This document shows, piece by piece, positions 2,577 to 10,629 of a stretch of 64,000 bases of DNA. The DNA comes from Cryomorphaceae bacterium (GTDB taxonomy: Bacteria > Bacteroidota > Bacteroidia > Flavobacteriales > Schleiferiaceae). Both the position numbers and the translations under genes were made by a program. The first letter of the stretch is position 1. Every line of letters begins with the position of its first letter. Below the pieces are notes generated by a model. The model was given only the letters and a program-made list of their open reading frames with translations, was not told the DNA's origin and did no database searches. The DNA is taken from positions 1 to 64,000 of the forward strand of contig JAHEGI010000002.1 of the NCBI GenBank assembly GCA_024639785.1, read 5' to 3'.

Positions 2577-5312
2577 ATGATTTTACGCCTTACCGCCTTG
2601 TTTTTTCTGATGAGTTTAGCCACTCAAGGTCAGATTCTTTCCATTGACCCTCCTTTTCCCACCCAAACGGATACGGTCACCATTTTGTACAACGCGACTC
2701 AAGGCAATGGCGCCCTTGTGGGCGTCACCCCAGTCTATGCCCACGCCGGCGTGATTACCACGGCCAGCACCTCCGCAACGGATTGGAAGTTTGTCCAAGG
2801 GCAATGGGGGCAGCCCACCCCTTCTGTCCTCATGACAGACCTGGGCAACAACGTGCACAAGATTGAGTACCACATGCCCACGTTTTACGGCTATCCATTG
2901 GCCTCTACCACCGTGCTTCAAATGGCCTTTGTTTTTCGCAATGCCGCGGGAAATGTCGTGGGCCGCTCTACGGATGGTTCGGACATCTACTACCCCGTGT
3001 ATCCGGCAAACGCGGGTTTACTTGGGGCCTTTTTCACCCCCGACGACCACCGCATCACCAATCCAGGTGATACCTTGGCCATCCACGCTGCGGCCAATGC
3101 CAACGCGACCTTGACGCTATATGACAATGGGGTGTTGGTGGCTTCGGATACGGCCGCCAAGCACCTCTACCATGACTTGGTGGTGACGGGAAATGGACAG
3201 CACATGCTGGAGTTTGTGGCTTTTGACGGCACCTCTACGGCACGCGATACGGTCTACTACTTTGGCAATCCCAGCCAATTGATCCAAAATCCACCCGCAG
3301 GTATGGTGGATGGCATCAATGCGTTAAACGACTCCACCGTGTTGCTTCAGTTGCATGCGCCGGATAAGGATTATGTGTATGTCTTAGGCGACTTCAATGG
3401 GTATTTGCCGGATTCGGCCCACTTCATGCACAAGTCCATCAATGGAGAGAAGTTTTGGGTGGTTCTAGACCTCCAAGCGGGCCAAACGTATACCTACCAA
3501 TATTGGATTGACGGACTGATCAAGGTGGCGGATCCTTATTCAGAATTGATTTTGGACCCCTACAACGACGGCAGTATTCCAGCCGCCACGTGGCCCAATT
3601 TGCCGAGCTATCCCACGGGCCTGACTACGGGGCATTGTACGCTTCTGCAACCAGGCAAGCCAGAATACTCCTGGAAGAACAGCGCTTTCCAAGCTCCTGT
3701 GCAAACCGATTTGCGCATCTACGAATTGCTCATCCGTGACTTTAGCAGCCAGCGTAACTACCAAATGGTACTGGATACGCTGGACTACTTGGAGCGTTTG
3801 GGCATCAACGCCATCGAATTCATGCCTAATAACGAGTTCGAAAACAACGAAAGCTGGGGCTACAACCCCTCCTTCCATATGGCTCTGGACAAGTACTACG
3901 GCACACCCGAGAAATACAAAGAGCTCATTGATAGCTGTCACAGCCGCGGTATCGCTGTCATCATGGACATGGTGTTTAATCATGCCTATGGCCAAAGTCC
4001 ACTCGTGCAGATGTACTGGGATGCGGGTCAGGGAAAGCCTGCGAGCAACAACCCGTGGTTTAATGCGGATTGCCCGCACCCTCCCTATTGCTGGGGCAAT
4101 GATTTTAATCATTTGGCCGCGGCCACCCAGCATTTCATGGACCGCGTAAACACGTATTGGTTCCAGGAATTCAAGATTGACGGTATTCGCTTCGATTACA
4201 CCAAAGGCTTCACCAACAACGGCAATGCGGGTTGGGACGTAACGCGCCAAAATTTACTCAAGCGCATGGCCGACACGATTTGGGCGGTCAACCCCAATGC
4301 GTACGTCATTTTGGAGCACTGGGGCGACAACAATGAAGAAAAACTCTTGTCGGACTATGGCATGATGCTTTGGGGAAATTCGACGTATAATTTCCGTCAA
4401 GGTGCGCAAGGCTATCTTCCCGGAAGTAACATAGCCTATGGGATTCACAAGCAACGTGGATGGAATGATGCCCATTTGATCAGCTACACGGAGAGCCACG
4501 ACGAGGAGCGGTTGATGTATGACGTCCTGACCTATGGGAATTCATCGCCTCAAGGCTACAAGACCTATGTCCTTAATACCGCGCTGAGACGCTCTGAATT
4601 GGCTAACGTATTTGCCTTCACCATCCCAGGTCCCAAAATGATTTACATGTTCAATGAGTTGGGCTATGATCAATCCATTGACAACCCTTGCCGCGTGTGT
4701 AATAAGCCACCGAAGTGGGGCTACCAGCAGGTGCCCGAGCGCCGTCGCCTCTATGATGTTACCTCGGCGGTCATGCAGCTTCGGAAGCAAGCCCCCGCAA
4801 GTTTTGATGGGAGTAATTTCACCTACAACCTTGGTGCTGCCGTGAAGCGCATCAACCTGCAAGATTCCACGATGAATGTCAACGTGATTGGCAATTGGGA
4901 TGTGGTGCCCCAAAACGGGATTCCAAATTTCCCGCATACAGGCACCTGGTATGAGTACTTCACCGCTGACTCGGTGGAAGTACTGGATCCATTCATGAGT
5001 TTTGCGCTGGAACCCGGTGAGTACCGCATTTATACGGATGTGAAACTGCAGCAGCCCAGCATCACCTTGGGCGAGGAGGAAATTGGGGCGCATGCGGGAC
5101 TTCGCGTATACCCGAACCCAGCGATAGACCAGGCCTTGGTGCATTCGTCTATTTCTGGAGATTTGCAGGTCATGGACCTTCAGGGTCAGATCCTGTTTCA
5201 CCAAAAGGTGGAGGCGTATGTTCCCCAAGAGATTGATTTGACCAGTTTAGCGCAAGGCATGTATGTGCTTCGCGTCGCAGATTTCTTCCAACGTATCCAA
5301 GTCCTCCGATGA
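2577..5312 (+). CDS. Secreted GH13 alpha-amylase-family enzyme with T9SS sorting domain
   Basis: A 911-residue secreted glycoside hydrolase. After a signal peptide (residues 1-18) come about 220 residues of beta-sandwich, then a CBM48/isoamylase-N-like domain (about 255-330, around YVYVLGDFNGY), then the GH13 barrel (about 375-740). The four GH13 regions are visible: DMVFNH at 464-469, GIRFDY with nucleophile D540, acid/base E580 in VILEHW, and SHDE with H641 and transition-state Asp D642. The C-terminal 75 residues (YPNPAIDQALVH..., ending QGMYVLRVADFFQRIQVLR) are a type A T9SS sorting domain, so the enzyme should be exported by type IX secretion and attached to or released from the surface. 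Substrate is probably an alpha-1,4/1,6-glucan, by family. The stop overlaps the next start (ATGA). Confidence 0.93.
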   Translation: MILRLTALFFLMSLATQGQILSIDPPFPTQTDTVTILYNATQGNGALVGVTPVYAHAGVITTASTSATDWKFVQGQWGQPTPSVLMTDLGNNVHKIEYHMPTFYGYPLASTTVLQMAFVFRNAAGNVVGRSTDGSDIYYPVYPANAGLLGAFFTPDDHRITNPGDTLAIHAAANANATLTLYDNGVLVASDTAAKHLYHDLVVTGNGQHMLEFVAFDGTSTARDTVYYFGNPSQLIQNPPAGMVDGINALNDSTVLLQLHAPDKDYVYVLGDFNGYLPDSAHFMHKSINGEKFWVVLDLQAGQTYTYQYWIDGLIKVADPYSELILDPYNDGSIPAATWPNLPSYPTGLTTGHCTLLQPGKPEYSWKNSAFQAPVQTDLRIYELLIRDFSSQRNYQMVLDTLDYLERLGINAIEFMPNNEFENNESWGYNPSFHMALDKYYGTPEKYKELIDSCHSRGIAVIMDMVFNHAYGQSPLVQMYWDAGQGKPASNNPWFNADCPHPPYCWGNDFNHLAAATQHFMDRVNTYWFQEFKIDGIRFDYTKGFTNNGNAGWDVTRQNLLKRMADTIWAVNPNAYVILEHWGDNNEEKLLSDYGMMLWGNSTYNFRQGAQGYLPGSNIAYGIHKQRGWNDAHLISYTESHDEERLMYDVLTYGNSSPQGYKTYVLNTALRRSELANVFAFTIPGPKMIYMFNELGYDQSIDNPCRVCNKPPKWGYQQVPERRRLYDVTSAVMQLRKQAPASFDGSNFTYNLGAAVKRINLQDSTMNVNVIGNWDVVPQNGIPNFPHTGTWYEYFTADSVEVLDPFMSFALEPGEYRIYTDVKLQQPSITLGEEEIGAHAGLRVYPNPAIDQALVHSSISGDLQVMDLQGQILFHQKVEAYVPQEIDLTSLAQGMYVLRVADFFQRIQVLR

Positions 5313-6049
5313 AATTATTCCGCTTCCTTCTTTGCTTGACCATTGGACTGACTGCCACAGCTGCCTATGCTCAGCCGAATTATATGCTGAGCACGAAGAA
5401 AGAGGGTACAGTGGCCCTAAGTCTTGGGGCCATGGCGCTTGGGAACCTCTGGTCGAGCCAACAGTTACAAGGCTTTACAGAAGCGGAATTGATGGCCTTG
5501 GATGCATCGAGCGTGCCCGCATTTGACCGGTGGTCACTGCAACGCTGGAATGAAGGGGCGGGGCATCGCTCTGATCTTCTCTTTTACGGAGCAGCAGCCT
5601 GGTCCTCTACGGCCGTGTTGATCCCCGCTTGGCAAGAGAAAAATGTATGGGCATCGTTGCCGGCAGCGGTCATGTGGGTGGAAATGAATTCCCTCACCTT
5701 GATGGCTACCGATTTGACCAAGAATCTGGTTAGTCGGCCTCGACCTTTTACCTATTATAATGCGGCCCCCTTGGCGGATCGCATGGATTCAGATGCGCGG
5801 AAGTCCTTCTTCTCTGGGCATACCAGCATGACGGCGGCCAATAGTTTTTATGCGGCCAAGATGTATAGCGACCTGTATCCAGATTCTCGATGGAAGCCCT
5901 GGGTATGGACCGCCGCGGCGGTGTTGCCCGCGATAACAGCACAACAGCGAATGGCGGCAGGAAAACATTTTCTAAGTGATGTCCTGGTGGGCTATGTCGT
6001 TGGTGGATTCATCGGGTACATGGTCCCAGAGTTTCATCGCCGGCGTTAA
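5309..6049 (+). CDS. Secreted/periplasmic PAP2-family phosphatase
   Basis: A 246-residue phosphatidic-acid-phosphatase type 2 protein. All three motifs are present: KNLVSRPRP at 138-146, SGHTS at 169-173 and H220xxxD224 in KHFLSDVLVG. It opens with a signal peptide (MKLFRFLLCLTIGLTATAAYAQ) and has hydrophobic helices around 95-135 and 195-240, so the active site faces the periplasm. Family members remove phosphate from undecaprenyl pyrophosphate, phosphatidate or lipid A; which one applies here cannot be told. It overlaps the amylase stop by four bases and its stop overlaps the convergent gene at 6046. Confidence 0.88.
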   Translation: MKLFRFLLCLTIGLTATAAYAQPNYMLSTKKEGTVALSLGAMALGNLWSSQQLQGFTEAELMALDASSVPAFDRWSLQRWNEGAGHRSDLLFYGAAAWSSTAVLIPAWQEKNVWASLPAAVMWVEMNSLTLMATDLTKNLVSRPRPFTYYNAAPLADRMDSDARKSFFSGHTSMTAANSFYAAKMYSDLYPDSRWKPWVWTAAAVLPAITAQQRMAAGKHFLSDVLVGYVVGGFIGYMVPEFHRRR

Positions 6050-7284
6050 AGCCAGTGCACGTCTTTTTCTTTTTGCTGGATGTGGATCTGCAGATGGCTG
6101 ACTTTGCCGGGCTCCAAGTGAAAAATCCCTTCAGACAAGTTTAAGTCCCAACCAGGGTGGGCATGCTGCTGCCCTGGTTTCCAATGGTATTCCCCCGGGG
6201 CTAAATGCCATTTCCATTGATCATTCCCGCGGAGGATATGGATGATGTAGCTACGGCCTTCCATGTCCAGTAGGGTAAGCGGAAAAGGTTCGTGATCCAC
6301 CTGTCCGGTGCATGCAATATGTAATTGTGGGGCCACAGGCAACCTTGCTTCGTCGATCTCATAGTGCGCTTTTCGATTCCATGTCGCGGTGTGCTGAAGG
6401 CGTGCAGTCCACATCCCAGGGCGGCCTTGTACGCTAAATCGCGGATGCTGTAGTCGAAGAGACCAGCCAGCATAGGTTTGATCCCAAGCAATCGACCACG
6501 GGGTGTTCGGCCGGCGAAATTGCACGCTAAATCGGCGCAAGTAGGGAGCGTCGCTCCAAGCAATCTGTCCATTAATGGGGAACTTGGGTCGGTAATCCCA
6601 AACCATGCGCCACGGACTTGAGGAGGAACTCCAGCTTAAGAAAAGTTGATGTCTTTGCACAGGTATGCGAGCCATGAGTTGCGCAGTAAGCCCATGATGA
6701 CTGTGTGTTTCAAAGAATTCAAGACTTTTTCCTTGGTAGTCAAATCGCAGTTGGCTGCTTTCCCAAGTGGATTGTCCCTGAAGCCGGAGACTCGCCCTGG
6801 AGAGCTTAGCAAAGGCCTCCCAATGATTTGAACTTTGACGCCATCGCCATTGGAGGAGGTCTCCTTTCCACGCAATTTGTTTTAAGCCGCGCGAAGACAA
6901 GGCATAGGACCAGCGCCCTTGGAGGCCTTCAGTCTGGATTCCTTGTGGGCCTATATTGAAACGGGTTAGGCCCAAAGGACCTTGGCCCAGCCATTGAAAC
7001 CAAGCATAGTGATCATGGAGAAATAACCTATAGCTCATAGAATTCCGCTGAAGTTGAAGACTATGCCCTGGCCCAAAGTCACTTTGACCCCATTGAAGGC
7101 GTATGAAAGGGCTGTGAAATTGGATTCCCGAGCGTTGCCCCACCATGCCCCACACCTCCTTGGGGATGAACTGTCCGCGAAGCGCATAGGCGCCTATGGG
7201 CGCTTGGATTCCCAGTCCGTAATGCATAGAGCCCGCCAATGCCCACGCTTGGGCCCAGCTGGTAAGGCTAATCGGGCCGGGCAT
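6046..7284 (-). CDS. Trp-rich outer-membrane barrel with C-terminal beta domain (usher-like?)
   Basis: About 412 residues. Residues 15-320 are a run of short amphipathic strands very rich in Trp, Gln and Arg, typical of an outer-membrane barrel. The last 90 residues (around LLDMEGRSYIIHIL and LAPGEYHWKPG) look like a small prealbumin/carboxypeptidase-regulatory-type beta-sandwich. The start is uncertain: ATG 7284 gives a 17-base overlap with the upstream gene, ATG 7320 or 7374 would overlap more, and no candidate gives a textbook signal peptide. Position after a chaperone-like gene suggests an usher or anchor for the secreted protein encoded at 7936-8490. This role is inference; classical ushers are about twice as long. 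Confidence 0.6.
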   Translation of the reverse strand: MPGPISLTSWAQAWALAGSMHYGLGIQAPIGAYALRGQFIPKEVWGMVGQRSGIQFHSPFIRLQWGQSDFGPGHSLQLQRNSMSYRLFLHDHYAWFQWLGQGPLGLTRFNIGPQGIQTEGLQGRWSYALSSRGLKQIAWKGDLLQWRWRQSSNHWEAFAKLSRASLRLQGQSTWESSQLRFDYQGKSLEFFETHSHHGLTAQLMARIPVQRHQLFLSWSSSSSPWRMVWDYRPKFPINGQIAWSDAPYLRRFSVQFRRPNTPWSIAWDQTYAGWSLRLQHPRFSVQGRPGMWTARLQHTATWNRKAHYEIDEARLPVAPQLHIACTGQVDHEPFPLTLLDMEGRSYIIHILRGNDQWKWHLAPGEYHWKPGQQHAHPGWDLNLSEGIFHLEPGKVSHLQIHIQQKEKDVHWL

Positions 7285-7936
7285 GACGTCGAATACCGAT
7301 GTGGTTCCCTTTCTCGTCATAGGCGATGACGTAGGCTGCGTCGCTCGGGGGCAGTTGTTTGACGGACTGGCCAAAGGGTGCTAGAAATAAATCCTCCGCC
7401 GGCCCTAGCGCACGGCCATCTTGATGGTAGGCTTGGCTTTTGGCGATCCAATAGTGCTTGGTGGAAGGCTGCCAATCCAGACCATCCGTCCAATGTGCTT
7501 GAATATCAACTTCAGGTTGGCTACAAAGACACCCATAATAAAGTCGCACGGCAAAGCGAATCTGCGTCTGAATTGCCCAACCAGAAGCATGCTGTACAGC
7601 TGGAGGATTTTGTTCATAGATCAGAAGGTTTGCAAAGTGAGCTAAACTGTCCGGCGTCCATTGAAAAGGGATGTTTTTCCGTTCTCTGGCTTGGACAACT
7701 ACCTCCGAAGGGATTGACAAGAAGGCTTCAGGGCGATCCGTAGTATCCATCTCAATGAACACGATACATGCGCTGTCCGAAGCATTGTACACCGTGATGA
7801 ATTGGGGCGATGGGTCCATGCATGGACTAAAGTGCGATAAGCCATTAAGTACAGACACCTGGCCAAAACTGGGCATAGAAAAATGGAGAAGGATAAGGAG
7901 GGCGCGATAGCGCCCTCCTATGTTTGTCCCGGTCAT
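7268..7936 (-). CDS. PapD-like periplasmic chaperone, divergent
   Basis: A 222-residue protein with a signal peptide (hydrophobic RALLILLHFSMPSFG, cleavage before QVSV). Residues 40-145 resemble the N-terminal immunoglobulin domain of pilus chaperones: a PSEVVVQARERKNIPF strand pair where these chaperones have PxxxxLxPGxxQxxR, and a final strand IQTQIRFAVRLYYG like the G1 strand (ixxxikLfYRP) that donates to subunits. The second domain is weaker. The start codon shares bases with the upstream stop (TAATG), so it is translationally coupled to the putative subunit gene, and it overlaps the barrel gene downstream. The family call rests on pattern only. Confidence 0.55.
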   Translation of the reverse strand: MTGTNIGGRYRALLILLHFSMPSFGQVSVLNGLSHFSPCMDPSPQFITVYNASDSACIVFIEMDTTDRPEAFLSIPSEVVVQARERKNIPFQWTPDSLAHFANLLIYEQNPPAVQHASGWAIQTQIRFAVRLYYGCLCSQPEVDIQAHWTDGLDWQPSTKHYWIAKSQAYHQDGRALGPAEDLFLAPFGQSVKQLPPSDAAYVIAYDEKGNHIGIRRHARPD

Positions 7937-8490
7937 TAGCTATTAGAAATTGTATAGCGCAAGGTGATCAAGCCCGAACTCGCGGCGTCCAAATTTTGCG
8001 TGGCGAAATTCAAGGCATAATTCAAGATCACACCTTCTCCCGCGCCATCCCCCGTGTACGCGCTTTGAATCCCAGAGATCAAGGTTCCCGAGCCGTTGGT
8101 GGCCGACAAGGTAATAGGGGCTGCGACGCCCAGAACACCGGTTCCATTGAGGTTGGGGCTAATCGTAAGCTGAATGCCACTCGGAAGTGCGCCACCAATT
8201 AAATCGACATCTACTTGGCGCACGTTATCTGGGCTAGCCCCCTTCACAGAGGTGAATTGTAGGTAGCTGTTTTGACTTGCTACGCTCGGAAAGCCCTGGC
8301 CCGGTATTGCGGGCGCTTGCACATGGAAGTTCATGACGGTGGCAGGTCCTGCGGATCCGTCCACCAGGCGTATCATGGCCGCTTCATCAATGGTAAAATC
8401 CACATCATGATTGGCATTAGTTTGACCCCAGGCCGAGAGGCTCAAGGCCATGGGGAGGCCCAAAAAGATGGGCAAAAAAGACGTTTTCAT
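7936..8490 (-). CDS. Secreted beta-sandwich protein, possible surface subunit
   Basis: A 184-residue protein with a signal peptide (MKTSFLPIFLGLPMALSLSAWG). The mature part is all-beta: Ser/Thr/Gly/Asn rich, no Cys, with alternating hydrophobics, ending in a strand LITLRYTISNS. It resembles a group of Bacteroidota exported proteins that I remember, with a common N-terminal VDFTIxEAAxI segment, LxFTS..., PSGIQL and YTGDGxGxGVxLNYAL elements; some are multi-copy. As first gene of a coupled operon with a chaperone-like and a barrel gene it is the natural candidate for the secreted subunit. No TAnnTTTG box lies before it; two inverted repeats do (8523-8568), so expression may need an activator. 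Confidence 0.6.
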   Translation of the reverse strand: MKTSFLPIFLGLPMALSLSAWGQTNANHDVDFTIDEAAMIRLVDGSAGPATVMNFHVQAPAIPGQGFPSVASQNSYLQFTSVKGASPDNVRQVDVDLIGGALPSGIQLTISPNLNGTGVLGVAAPITLSATNGSGTLISGIQSAYTGDGAGEGVILNYALNFATQNLDAASSGLITLRYTISNS

Positions 8491-8522
8491 TGTTTTTGGA
8501 ATTTGTTAGGATAAAAATTGAC

Positions 8523-8537
8523 TGCTTGGCCAAAGCA
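8523..8537. promoter_or_regulatory. Inverted repeat TGCTT-N5-AAGCA, candidate operator
   Basis: Perfect five-base arms with a five-base centre that itself contains the palindrome TTGGCCAA (8526-8533). It lies 33-47 bases upstream of the putative subunit gene and downstream of two Crp/Fnr-type regulators. Confidence 0.35.
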
Positions 8538-8552
8538 TGACAAATCTCATCC

Positions 8553-8568
8553 GCTTGAGGACTCAAGC
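8553..8568. promoter_or_regulatory. Inverted repeat GCTTGAG-GA-CTCAAGC, candidate operator
   Basis: Perfect seven-base arms around a two-base centre, 63-78 bases upstream of the ATG at 8490. No T-run follows on either strand, which argues against an intrinsic terminator and for a protein-binding site. The dimeric Crp/Fnr-type proteins encoded just upstream are natural candidates to bind it. Confidence 0.4.
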
Positions 8569-8616
8569 CGGTTAGAAACGAATCCCAAATGGATTTAAAT
8601 AGGAAAAAGTGCTAGC

Positions 8617-9204
8617 CTAAAGCTTCTCTAAGATTCGAAAGAAGGTGGCTCGACTAATACCGAGATAGGCAGCCATGTGATTTCGAGTCAGCGATGAACA
8701 GAGCTCGGGGGAGTGAGCCAATAACCATGTGTAATGGTCAAGTGGCTTTTGATGAAGCAGGTGAATGAAGTGTTCACGTGTGTTTTTCAACATGACTTGA
8801 CAAACCACGAAAAATAGCTCATCAAAATGCGCTTCTTTGTGAAATTCTTCCAGGGTGAGTTGATCCAGGCAAATCACGGTGCTCGGACGGCTCACAATGT
8901 ATCGGGTGTCTGCAGGACGGCCGGTAGTGAATCTATGGTGGTTAAAGACGAAGTCGTTGGACGTGTAGGCCTGTGGAATGCTAGGTGGTCCTCCATCTCG
9001 TTCCGAAAGTTCATATACGCAGCCTTCGATAATGAAATAGAGATGCGTGGATGCATCATCACGGACGATGATCTCGTGATTCTTCGCGAGCGAAATCGGA
9101 GCAGAAAATGCGTTGATGAAACGCGTCATGAGTTCTTCTAGGCCGGGGTGTAGCTCATGGAATTGAGCCATTAGCACCTGACTCAACGCATTACTAGGCA
9201 TCAT
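8617..9204 (-). CDS. Crp/Fnr-family transcriptional regulator (copy 1)
   Basis: A 195-residue protein with an N-terminal cyclic-nucleotide-binding-type beta-roll (about residues 25-120, with HLYFIIEGCVYELSERDGG), a helical dimerisation segment, and a C-terminal winged-helix reader whose recognition helix is NHMAAYLGISRATFFRILEKL-like (about 172-195). The usual phosphate-binding cassette for cAMP is not evident, as in many Bacteroidota members that sense other or no ligands, and there are no Fnr-type cysteine clusters. It overlaps copy 2 by 11 bases and precedes the putative surface operon, so it may control it. Confidence 0.85.
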   Translation of the reverse strand: MMPSNALSQVLMAQFHELHPGLEELMTRFINAFSAPISLAKNHEIIVRDDASTHLYFIIEGCVYELSERDGGPPSIPQAYTSNDFVFNHHRFTTGRPADTRYIVSRPSTVICLDQLTLEEFHKEAHFDELFFVVCQVMLKNTREHFIHLLHQKPLDHYTWLLAHSPELCSSLTRNHMAAYLGISRATFFRILEKL

Positions 9205-9784
9205 GAAGGGTATTTATGGCTCGGAATAATGAGGATCTTGACAGGCCTAAATACTTGGCTAATTCCTCTCTCGAAATTTGAGATAGAATTTGGTGATTGC
9301 TATCAAGCGTTTTTTGGAGGCGATCAGTTGGTTTTAAAAGACATAAGTCCGTTGACCGTTTGCGGTAATTACCTATATCTCTAGCGGTCAAATTAATAGC
9401 CATACGGAACCCCATGCCGAAACGCTCTGTGATATGTTTGACTTGCTCCCCTGAAATTCCATAAATGGTCCCTGCTTGTTTGCATAGCATCTTGGTGTCG
9501 CAGGTATTGCCGAGGATGAAAGACGACTCGGACCAAAACAACGTCATCGGAGGGATGATTCGATGGCAAACAGTCGTCCCAAAGTGATCGCTATATTCAG
9601 CCAAAGTGGCGTTGGAATTGAAGTACAATACAGGCTTAGACTCGCCAAGGTCCCATACTTTTTGACCAGCGGCTAAATTTCCGATTATTTCAAACTGCAG
9701 AGACCACGCGCTTATGCCATTCTTGAAGTGAGATGATCTCGCTCCAAATAACTTGACTAACTGTTCGGTGATGTGTGCATTCAT
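9194..9784 (-). CDS. Crp/Fnr-like transcriptional regulator (copy 2, divergent)
   Basis: A 196-residue paralogue-like partner of the next gene. The C-terminus has the same reader pattern (SREELAKYLGLSRSSLFRAIN, about 167-190). The N-terminal two thirds are expected to be a cupin/beta-roll sensory domain but have drifted far from the consensus, with several Cys residues (in GNTCDTKMLCK, and elsewhere) not arranged like an Fnr iron-sulfur site. It overlaps copy 1 by 11 bases, so the two are probably made together and could form heterodimers (inference). A -7-like box (TAGCTTTC) lies six bases before the start. Confidence 0.75.
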   Translation of the reverse strand: MNAHITEQLVKLFGARSSHFKNGISAWSLQFEIIGNLAAGQKVWDLGESKPVLYFNSNATLAEYSDHFGTTVCHRIIPPMTLFWSESSFILGNTCDTKMLCKQAGTIYGISGEQVKHITERFGMGFRMAINLTARDIGNYRKRSTDLCLLKPTDRLQKTLDSNHQILSQISREELAKYLGLSRSSLFRAINTLHDA

Positions 9785-9855: not shown

Positions 9856-10629
9856 CTAATCCATCCCATTATCTAAATTCATAGGAACGGGGCCCGTTAA
9901 GCGCTCCCTCAAATGCCAGCGATTAAAGCGATAAAAATCCAGCATGCCTTGCTCAACGTCTTGGATGATTCTTGGGGCTGAAACTCTCAAGTCCACTTCA
10001 ATCACAGGATGTTTTAATGCGTTCCATAAATGCTTGAATAAGTGGGGTAAAAAACCCGCTTTTAAATCATGGAAATAGGGTATTTCAGGGGAGTGGTAGC
10101 GGATAGAATAGAAGACGACGGGGACTTCATTTCGCATCGCCTCGACGAATAGGCCTGGCTTGACGGGGTAGATGTCATGCGTGCCCGATGTACGGCCTTC
10201 TGGGCAAACAAAAATGCTGAGGCCTTTCCGAATGCGCTCCACAATCTCTTTGCGAATTTTCTTCCCGGCTTCGGGACAATGCCGACGTACCCAAATAGTA
10301 TTCAATCCTTGTCCGAGCCAACCGATTAGTGGCCAGTTCTTGAATTGATCGGCAACAATCATGACAGCGGGCCGATGTCCTATATTGAAAAAGATGTCAT
10401 AATACGAAGGATGATTGCACATAATTAATGCGGGATCCTTCGGCAAATCACCGATAATATTGAGTCGAATTCCCAGGACTTTGTGAATGATAAACATGCC
10501 CTTGCGATGCACATTGAAGGCTGCTTGACCCCCCAAAAGTCCACGAGTCAGCGGAATAGCCACGCTGATGGCGGTCATTAGTAGAGTGAAGAAAAATATC
10601 CTCACGAAGGCGCGCAGGTGCAATAGCAT
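9856..10629 (-). CDS. plsC: 1-acyl-sn-glycerol-3-phosphate acyltransferase
   Basis: A 257-residue PlsC-family acyltransferase that would transfer a second acyl chain to lysophosphatidate or a related acceptor. The catalytic NHxxxxD motif is NHPSYYD (H73, D78) and the acceptor-phosphate motif is CPEGRTSG (E144-G145-R146). One membrane helix near residues 8-30 anchors it in the inner membrane. It lies downstream of an acyl-carrier-protein hydrolase-like gene and pssA, fitting a lipid-synthesis group. It has its own -7-like box four bases before the start. PlsC paralogues with other acceptors (ornithine lipids, for example) cannot be excluded. Confidence 0.87.
   Translation of the reverse strand: MLLHLRAFVRIFFFTLLMTAISVAIPLTRGLLGGQAAFNVHRKGMFIIHKVLGIRLNIIGDLPKDPALIMCNHPSYYDIFFNIGHRPAVMIVADQFKNWPLIGWLGQGLNTIWVRRHCPEAGKKIRKEIVERIRKGLSIFVCPEGRTSGTHDIYPVKPGLFVEAMRNEVPVVFYSIRYHSPEIPYFHDLKAGFLPHLFKHLWNALKHPVIEVDLRVSAPRIIQDVEQGMLDFYRFNRWHLRERLTGPVPMNLDNGMD

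Follow-up and report, generated by a model that had tools for sequence, protein, structure and literature searches.

Our analysis suggests that three coupled genes on the minus strand of contig JAHEGI010000002.1 of a Cryomorphaceae bacterium (positions 8490 to 6046 of the analysed stretch of 64,000 nucleotides, hereafter the window) encode a minimal chaperone-usher-type surface-assembly unit, a reading to which we assign a probability of about 0.68. The trio consists of a pilin-like subunit, a periplasmic chaperone and a compact usher-like outer-membrane barrel protein, and is best described as a reduced form of the chaperone-usher (CU) kind from an apparently undescribed branch in Bacteroidota. 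The original prediction, made from the letters of the window alone, had proposed a small, undescribed surface-assembly unit at this place, and the folds, the profile links and the conservation of the trio largely support it. The genome carrying the window is that of an aquatic bacterium and has a size of 1.82 Mb, and the named relatives that bear the cassette are metagenome-assembled genomes of Schleiferiaceae/Cryomorphaceae.

The genes follow each other in the order subunit (7936-8490, 184 amino acids (aa), with a signal peptide), chaperone (7268-7936, 222 aa, with a signal peptide and two PapD/WxLIP-like domains, the C-terminal one shortened) and barrel (6046-7284, 412 aa). The subunit stop codon and the chaperone ATG have one base in common and the chaperone stop and the barrel ATG overlap by 17 bp. 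In the mechanical list of open reading frames the barrel frame begins at a TTG (7374); this start was rejected and reset to the ATG at 7284, since the N-terminus conserved among relatives begins at the equivalent of this ATG.

The subunit had been described as a secreted all-beta protein, and its AlphaFold2 model (predicted local distance difference test score (pLDDT) 86, predicted template modelling score (pTM) 0.73) is a beta sandwich whose strands fall within residues 37-43 and 73-183. In a Foldseek search of the PDB, ranks 1-5 were taken by CFA/I-class pilins (CfaB, 4y2n/4y2l, and the CFA/I and CS17 pili), and CupB6, the PapG pilin, Caf1, FimG and many other CU pilins appeared further down the list. 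Residues 24-36 (8383..8421, minus strand) lie outside the folded core and form a putative N-terminal donor strand, in which hydrophobic residues (V30, F32, I34) alternate with polar ones and V30-x-F32-x-I34 immediately precedes the first strand of the model. Columns 32 and 34 are hydrophobic in 29/29 subunit sequences and column 30 in 69%, and the neighbouring columns are polar.

The putative G1-type donor strand of the chaperone comprises residues 120-133 (7538..7579, minus strand; WAIQTQIRFAVRLY). The segment IRFAVRLYYG, which had been noticed as a PapD-like strand ending, aligns with the end of the G1 strand of the PapD family, IKLYYRP. Positions 120, 122, 128, 130 and 132 are hydrophobic in 12/12 sequences and positions 124 and 126 in half of them, while the alternate positions 121-131 are mostly or wholly polar or small; this is the hydrophobic alternation expected of the G1 donor strand in a PapD-type chaperone. 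Judged by sequence, the patterns needed for donor-strand assembly are present in both the subunit and the chaperone.

A chain of profile comparisons (hhalign) leads from the window chaperone to the E. coli FimC/PapD set. The chaperones of the genus match the larger Bacteroidota chaperones with an E-value of 6e-17, the larger Flavobacteriales set matches a third Bacteroidota set (L132-L134, L137) with 4e-28, and this third set matches FimC, SfmC, ElfD, YcbF, YraI and EcpB of E. coli K-12 over the full length with 2e-9. Compared directly with the FimC/PapD set, the genus chaperones reached 7e-4; in the control with shuffled columns the best of 30 shuffles reached about 0.06 (6e-2). At the level of profiles the chaperone family therefore appears to be related to FimC/PapD, with two Ig-like domains homologous to those of PapD/FimC.

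Profiles likewise point to homology with the domains of WxLIP, the protein that accompanies WxL proteins in the DUF916-DUF3324 clusters of Bacillota. The larger Bacteroidota chaperones match WxLIP in Pfam (PF11797, 2e-9; PF06030, 1e-6) and match EfmWxLIP1 (PDB 9i25, 9i1y) over both domains with E-values of 2e-14, or 2e-17 with a broader set, and through these relatives the window chaperone is tied to WxLIP. By these scores the family seems at least as close to WxLIP as to FimC/PapD. PapD and WxLIP did not match each other directly (E-value 0.05), so that the Bacteroidota chaperones bridge two families which both match them but not one another.

This closeness makes room for a static platform like that of WxL proteins, in which the chaperone homologue would remain permanently bound to the subunit and the barrel would only anchor the pair, with no fibre formed. 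As in the window, a partner gene of about 160-190 aa can sit directly before the chaperone gene in WxL/WxLIP clusters, and two Gram-positive plasmid loci show a WxL gene directly before WxLIP. AlphaFold2 predicts that a WxLIP strand fills a gap in WxL in WxLIP-WxL complexes (PMC10599100), a strand donation similar to the one considered here, and a single, highly conserved subunit with no adhesin would also fit a platform. However, WxLIP ends in a transmembrane helix and is located on the peptidoglycan of one-membrane cells that have no outer-membrane barrel, whereas the sequence of the window chaperone has no such helix. The subunit structure matches CU pilins, and the conserved hydrophobic alternation in its N-terminal extension suggests exchange. 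No W-x-L motif occurs in the mature window subunit, and the genus subunit set gave neither a WxL profile match nor a Pfam match, so a WxL identity was rejected for it; only one distant subunit set, not that of the window, gave a marginal WxL match (E-value 3e-4). We consider such a platform unlikely, although it deserves to be kept in mind beside the minimal CU-type unit.

The barrel protein had been predicted to be a Trp-rich outer-membrane barrel with a C-terminal beta domain, of about half the length of known ushers. Tryptophan makes up 7% of residues 1-302, and 412 aa compare with 830 +/- 32 aa for ushers (PMC4827864). The AlphaFold2 model (pLDDT 87.5, pTM 0.55) shows a predicted pore of about 26 short beta strands with no domain-size insertion (residues 5-302; 6379..7272, minus strand), followed by a single C-terminal beta domain (residues 320-404; 6073..6327, minus strand). 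The first strand starts at residue 5, and the loops between strands all have at most about 13 residues. Foldseek placed FimD structures at ranks 1-5 and PapC at ranks 11-12, with porins between and below, and the FimD hits were ahead of the porins by one to two orders of magnitude in E-value. The in/out alternation of the strands exceeded that of all 2000 within-strand shuffles. The C-terminal domain is akin to the last domain of relatives of about 905 aa (hhalign E-values of 1e-3 to 1e-4 in the comparison with the large proteins; at best 0.2 with shuffled columns).

The 412-aa protein might instead be an ordinary porin or a beta-rich periplasmic protein, with its neighbours serving some other envelope function. 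OprD/Occ and other porins (E-value 2e-5 and weaker) as well as rhamnogalacturonan lyases also score in Foldseek, the pTM of 0.55 leaves room for such a protein, and a classical signal peptide is absent. Against this stand the five leading FimD ranks, the strong amphipathicity of the strands and the retention of the overlapping genes together with a pilin-like subunit and a chaperone in every complete locus seen. Moreover, what relatives have in place of the barrel is a large usher-like protein whose last domain is related. We therefore regard an ordinary porin or periplasmic protein as improbable and keep the usher-like pore as the preferred interpretation.

Within the genus the chaperone is present in 14 of 22 genomes, the one of the window included, and a fifteenth (G021) carries what appears to be the end of the barrel gene at a contig edge. 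In every complete locus all three genes occur in one order, which is that of chaperone-usher loci as originally stated, with ends overlapping or almost touching, and synteny of the cassette extends across the genus. The block 6046-9784, which coincides with the stretch singled out in the original prediction and includes two regulator genes discussed below, is flanked by a PAP2 gene and an acyltransferase gene (5309-6049 and 9856-10629). In five cassette-free genomes (loci L154-L158) the gap between the two flanking genes measures about 15 bp, a clean empty site, and the five-gene block therefore behaves as one present-or-absent unit. The subunit, chaperone and barrel genes are under purifying selection, with ratios of non-synonymous to synonymous substitution rates (dN/dS) of about 0.03-0.22 in within-genus pairs with unsaturated dS, and ratios of the corresponding proportions of differences (pN/pS) of 0.08-0.37 over all within-genus pairs and all three genes.

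Homologues of the subunit were found by profile in 60 of 348 Flavobacteriales genomes and those of the chaperone in 55 of 393 Bacteroidota genomes; the subunit profile matches subunits of other Flavobacteriales. In most loci inspected, one or more subunits are accompanied by a chaperone, about 265-290 aa in length, and by an outer-membrane protein that measures about 900-1340 aa; among all relatives with the same gene order, in Bacteroidota and on a Deinococcus plasmid, the latter protein spans about 840-1340 aa. A bare, complete trio with a third protein of 840 aa lies on plasmid 2 of Deinococcus deserti (L169, NC_012529.1); its chaperone is 32% identical to a Flavobacteriales chaperone, and the trio may have been acquired from Bacteroidota by transfer. 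This chaperone is annotated as 'FimB/Mfa2 family fimbrial subunit', a name that is probably wrong. Among the loci seen, barrels of the compact type (about 405-430 aa) were confined to two genera, whose genomes measure 1.3-1.8 Mb. The half length is a reduction in these two small-genome genera, and in most lineages the full system is not small. The neighbourhood is thus conserved throughout the genus and, in its larger-barrel version, across Bacteroidota and in D. deserti. Homologues do occur together, and both the Ig-type chaperone fold (judged by profile) and the barrel (judged by model) were recovered. That three unrelated envelope genes became neighbours by chance, for which only the lack of Pfam matches of the window proteins speaks, is contradicted by this co-occurrence and order over many genera and by a block that is present or absent as a whole with a clean empty site, and is hardly credible.

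Several observations weigh against a CU-type unit. The Pfam models for Usher, PapD and pilins matched none of the window proteins, direct scans of the trio with Pfam and NCBIfam yielded nothing useful, and sequence searches of the PDB with genus-only alignments returned noise. The Usher profile (PF00577, TCDB 1.B.11) found no match genome-wide or by hmmscan of the barrel, which is not a formal member of that family. The template modelling scores (TM-scores) of subunit and barrel are low (0.24-0.40, with at most 0.39 for the barrel against FimD), which leaves Foldseek statistics as the basis of both fold matches; they give support, not proof. In the AlphaFold2 model the barrel lacks the N-terminal domain, the plug and the second C-terminal domain of ushers; its strands are short, on average about 8 residues, and the basic residue typical of a classical signal peptide is missing from its N-terminus. 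Even the large relatives reach only 2e-4 against FimD, and a shared-domain control with TonB receptors was equally strong. CU chaperones are characterised by an invariant proline in strand D1 and by a carboxylate anchor, R8/K112 in the classical and R89 in the archaic and alternative types. In the genus chaperones the basic residues R8/K112 of PapD are not conserved (R, Q, S, K or D at the place of K112, no arginine at that of R8), and a proline aligned with the invariant one occurs in only about half of the sequences; by alignment, the chaperone seems to fall outside the strict CU signatures. The locus contains no adhesin gene, as had been noted before, and a second subunit was not found in the genome. 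Finally, the subunit is the most conserved member of the trio (subunits are 87-94% identical in pairs whose chaperones and barrels reach 62-94%), the reverse of what we would expect for pilins.

If the trio is a CU-type unit, Sec would take the subunit and the chaperone into the periplasm, where the G1 strand of the chaperone (about residues 120-133) would complete the presumably incomplete Ig-like fold of the subunit by donor-strand complementation. The chaperone-subunit complex would then dock at the outer-membrane barrel, a putative usher-like pore of 24-26 strands, most likely through the C-terminal beta domain, because the barrel has no N-terminal domain. The N-terminal extension of the next subunit (V-x-F-x-I) would there displace the chaperone strand, and the product translocated to the surface would be a homopolymer or short fibre of a single subunit. 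In CU systems, donor-strand complementation and exchange work through the G1 strands of chaperones and the N-terminal extensions of pilins (PMC4654587).

In its predicted pilin-like subunit fold with CfaB as best Foldseek match, its putative N-terminal donor strand, its PapD-family chaperone, its predicted usher-like barrel and its usual gene order, the trio resembles the alternative and archaic CU pili (CFA/I-CS1, Ecp, Csu); unlike these, it has no Pfam-detectable members, and its barrel, at half the usher length, lacks both plug and N-terminal domain. PMC4654587 describes CU systems from Proteobacteria, Cyanobacteria and Deinococcus-Thermus, and PMC4827864 adds Spirochaetae for ushers; Bacteroidota are listed in neither of these two papers. 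In the open-access literature we found no description of an usher pathway in Bacteroidota or of this branch, which may have been reported elsewhere. The large Bacteroidota loci share with the window trio a homologous subunit and a homologous chaperone (about 265 aa) in the same order, whereas their outer-membrane protein has at least twice the length and carries Ig-like domains at its N-terminus and two domains at its C-terminus, and extra subunits are often present. In one annotated record the proteins of such a locus are named hypothetical, 'FimB/Mfa2' and carboxypeptidase regulatory-like. Type V (FimA/Mfa1) pili of Bacteroidales are, like the product proposed here, fibres of donor-strand type in Bacteroidota; unlike the window trio, they derive from protease-processed lipoprotein precursors and have no PapD-type chaperone or usher.

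Two genes upstream of the subunit, originally described as Crp/Fnr-type regulators, were recognised as such with Pfam scores short of the cut-off. The first (8617-9204, minus strand) has a cyclic nucleotide-binding-like domain and a helix-turn-helix (HTH; PF00027, 5e-4; PF13545, 6e-4), and the second (9194-9784, minus strand) an HTH with a divergent sensor domain (PF13545, 4.5e-5). The genus falls into two clades; regulator homologues occupy the same place in the loci of clade A, to which the window belongs, and clade B has no such pair. All six clade-A intergenic regions before the subunit (6/6) have one strong block in common, TTTGT-C-TGCTTTGGCCAA, and the near-palindrome TGCTTTGGCCAAGCA (8523..8537, minus strand), which precedes the subunit start and may be an operator or promoter element, is conserved in clade A only and was found exactly in three genomes, in each at this site only; the genome carrying the window has a single exact copy. 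The adjacent Crp-like pair probably controls the clade-A unit via this near-palindrome. A perfect inverted repeat upstream of the subunit, GCTTGAG-TC-CTCAAGC, was rejected as operator, being absent in relatives.

Some relatives show further features. In one large locus (L083:9999-17966) a giant Calx-beta protein of 2655 aa with a weak match to the tail of type IX secretion system (T9SS) substrates lies within the locus that holds the subunit, chaperone and usher-like genes, which suggests that T9SS and this pathway cooperate in some relatives. In L135 a DUF4402 subunit adjoins a chaperone that matches PapD_N and WxLIP weakly, and the outer-membrane protein has SPOR domains. Near the compact cassette of the second small-genome genus (L094:7788-8522) we noticed, by eye, a proteorhodopsin-like protein.

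We tentatively propose, as an idea we hold somewhat short of even odds, that CU pili and the Gram-positive WxL complexes are branches of one superfamily of donor-strand chaperones, that Bacteroidota and the Deinococcus plasmid carry a connecting, undescribed usher-type branch, and that in the genus studied here reduction has left only three genes of it and a plugless pore about 300 residues in size, to our knowledge the smallest usher-like pore. If this is true, a large part of Bacteroidota would possess an unrecognised surface-assembly pathway, and the chaperones that bridge PapD and WxLIP would provide a testable idea on the origin of donor-strand assembly. For finding out which parts of an usher are essential, the three-gene unit could offer a minimal model, since it would have to function with neither an N-terminal domain nor a plug.

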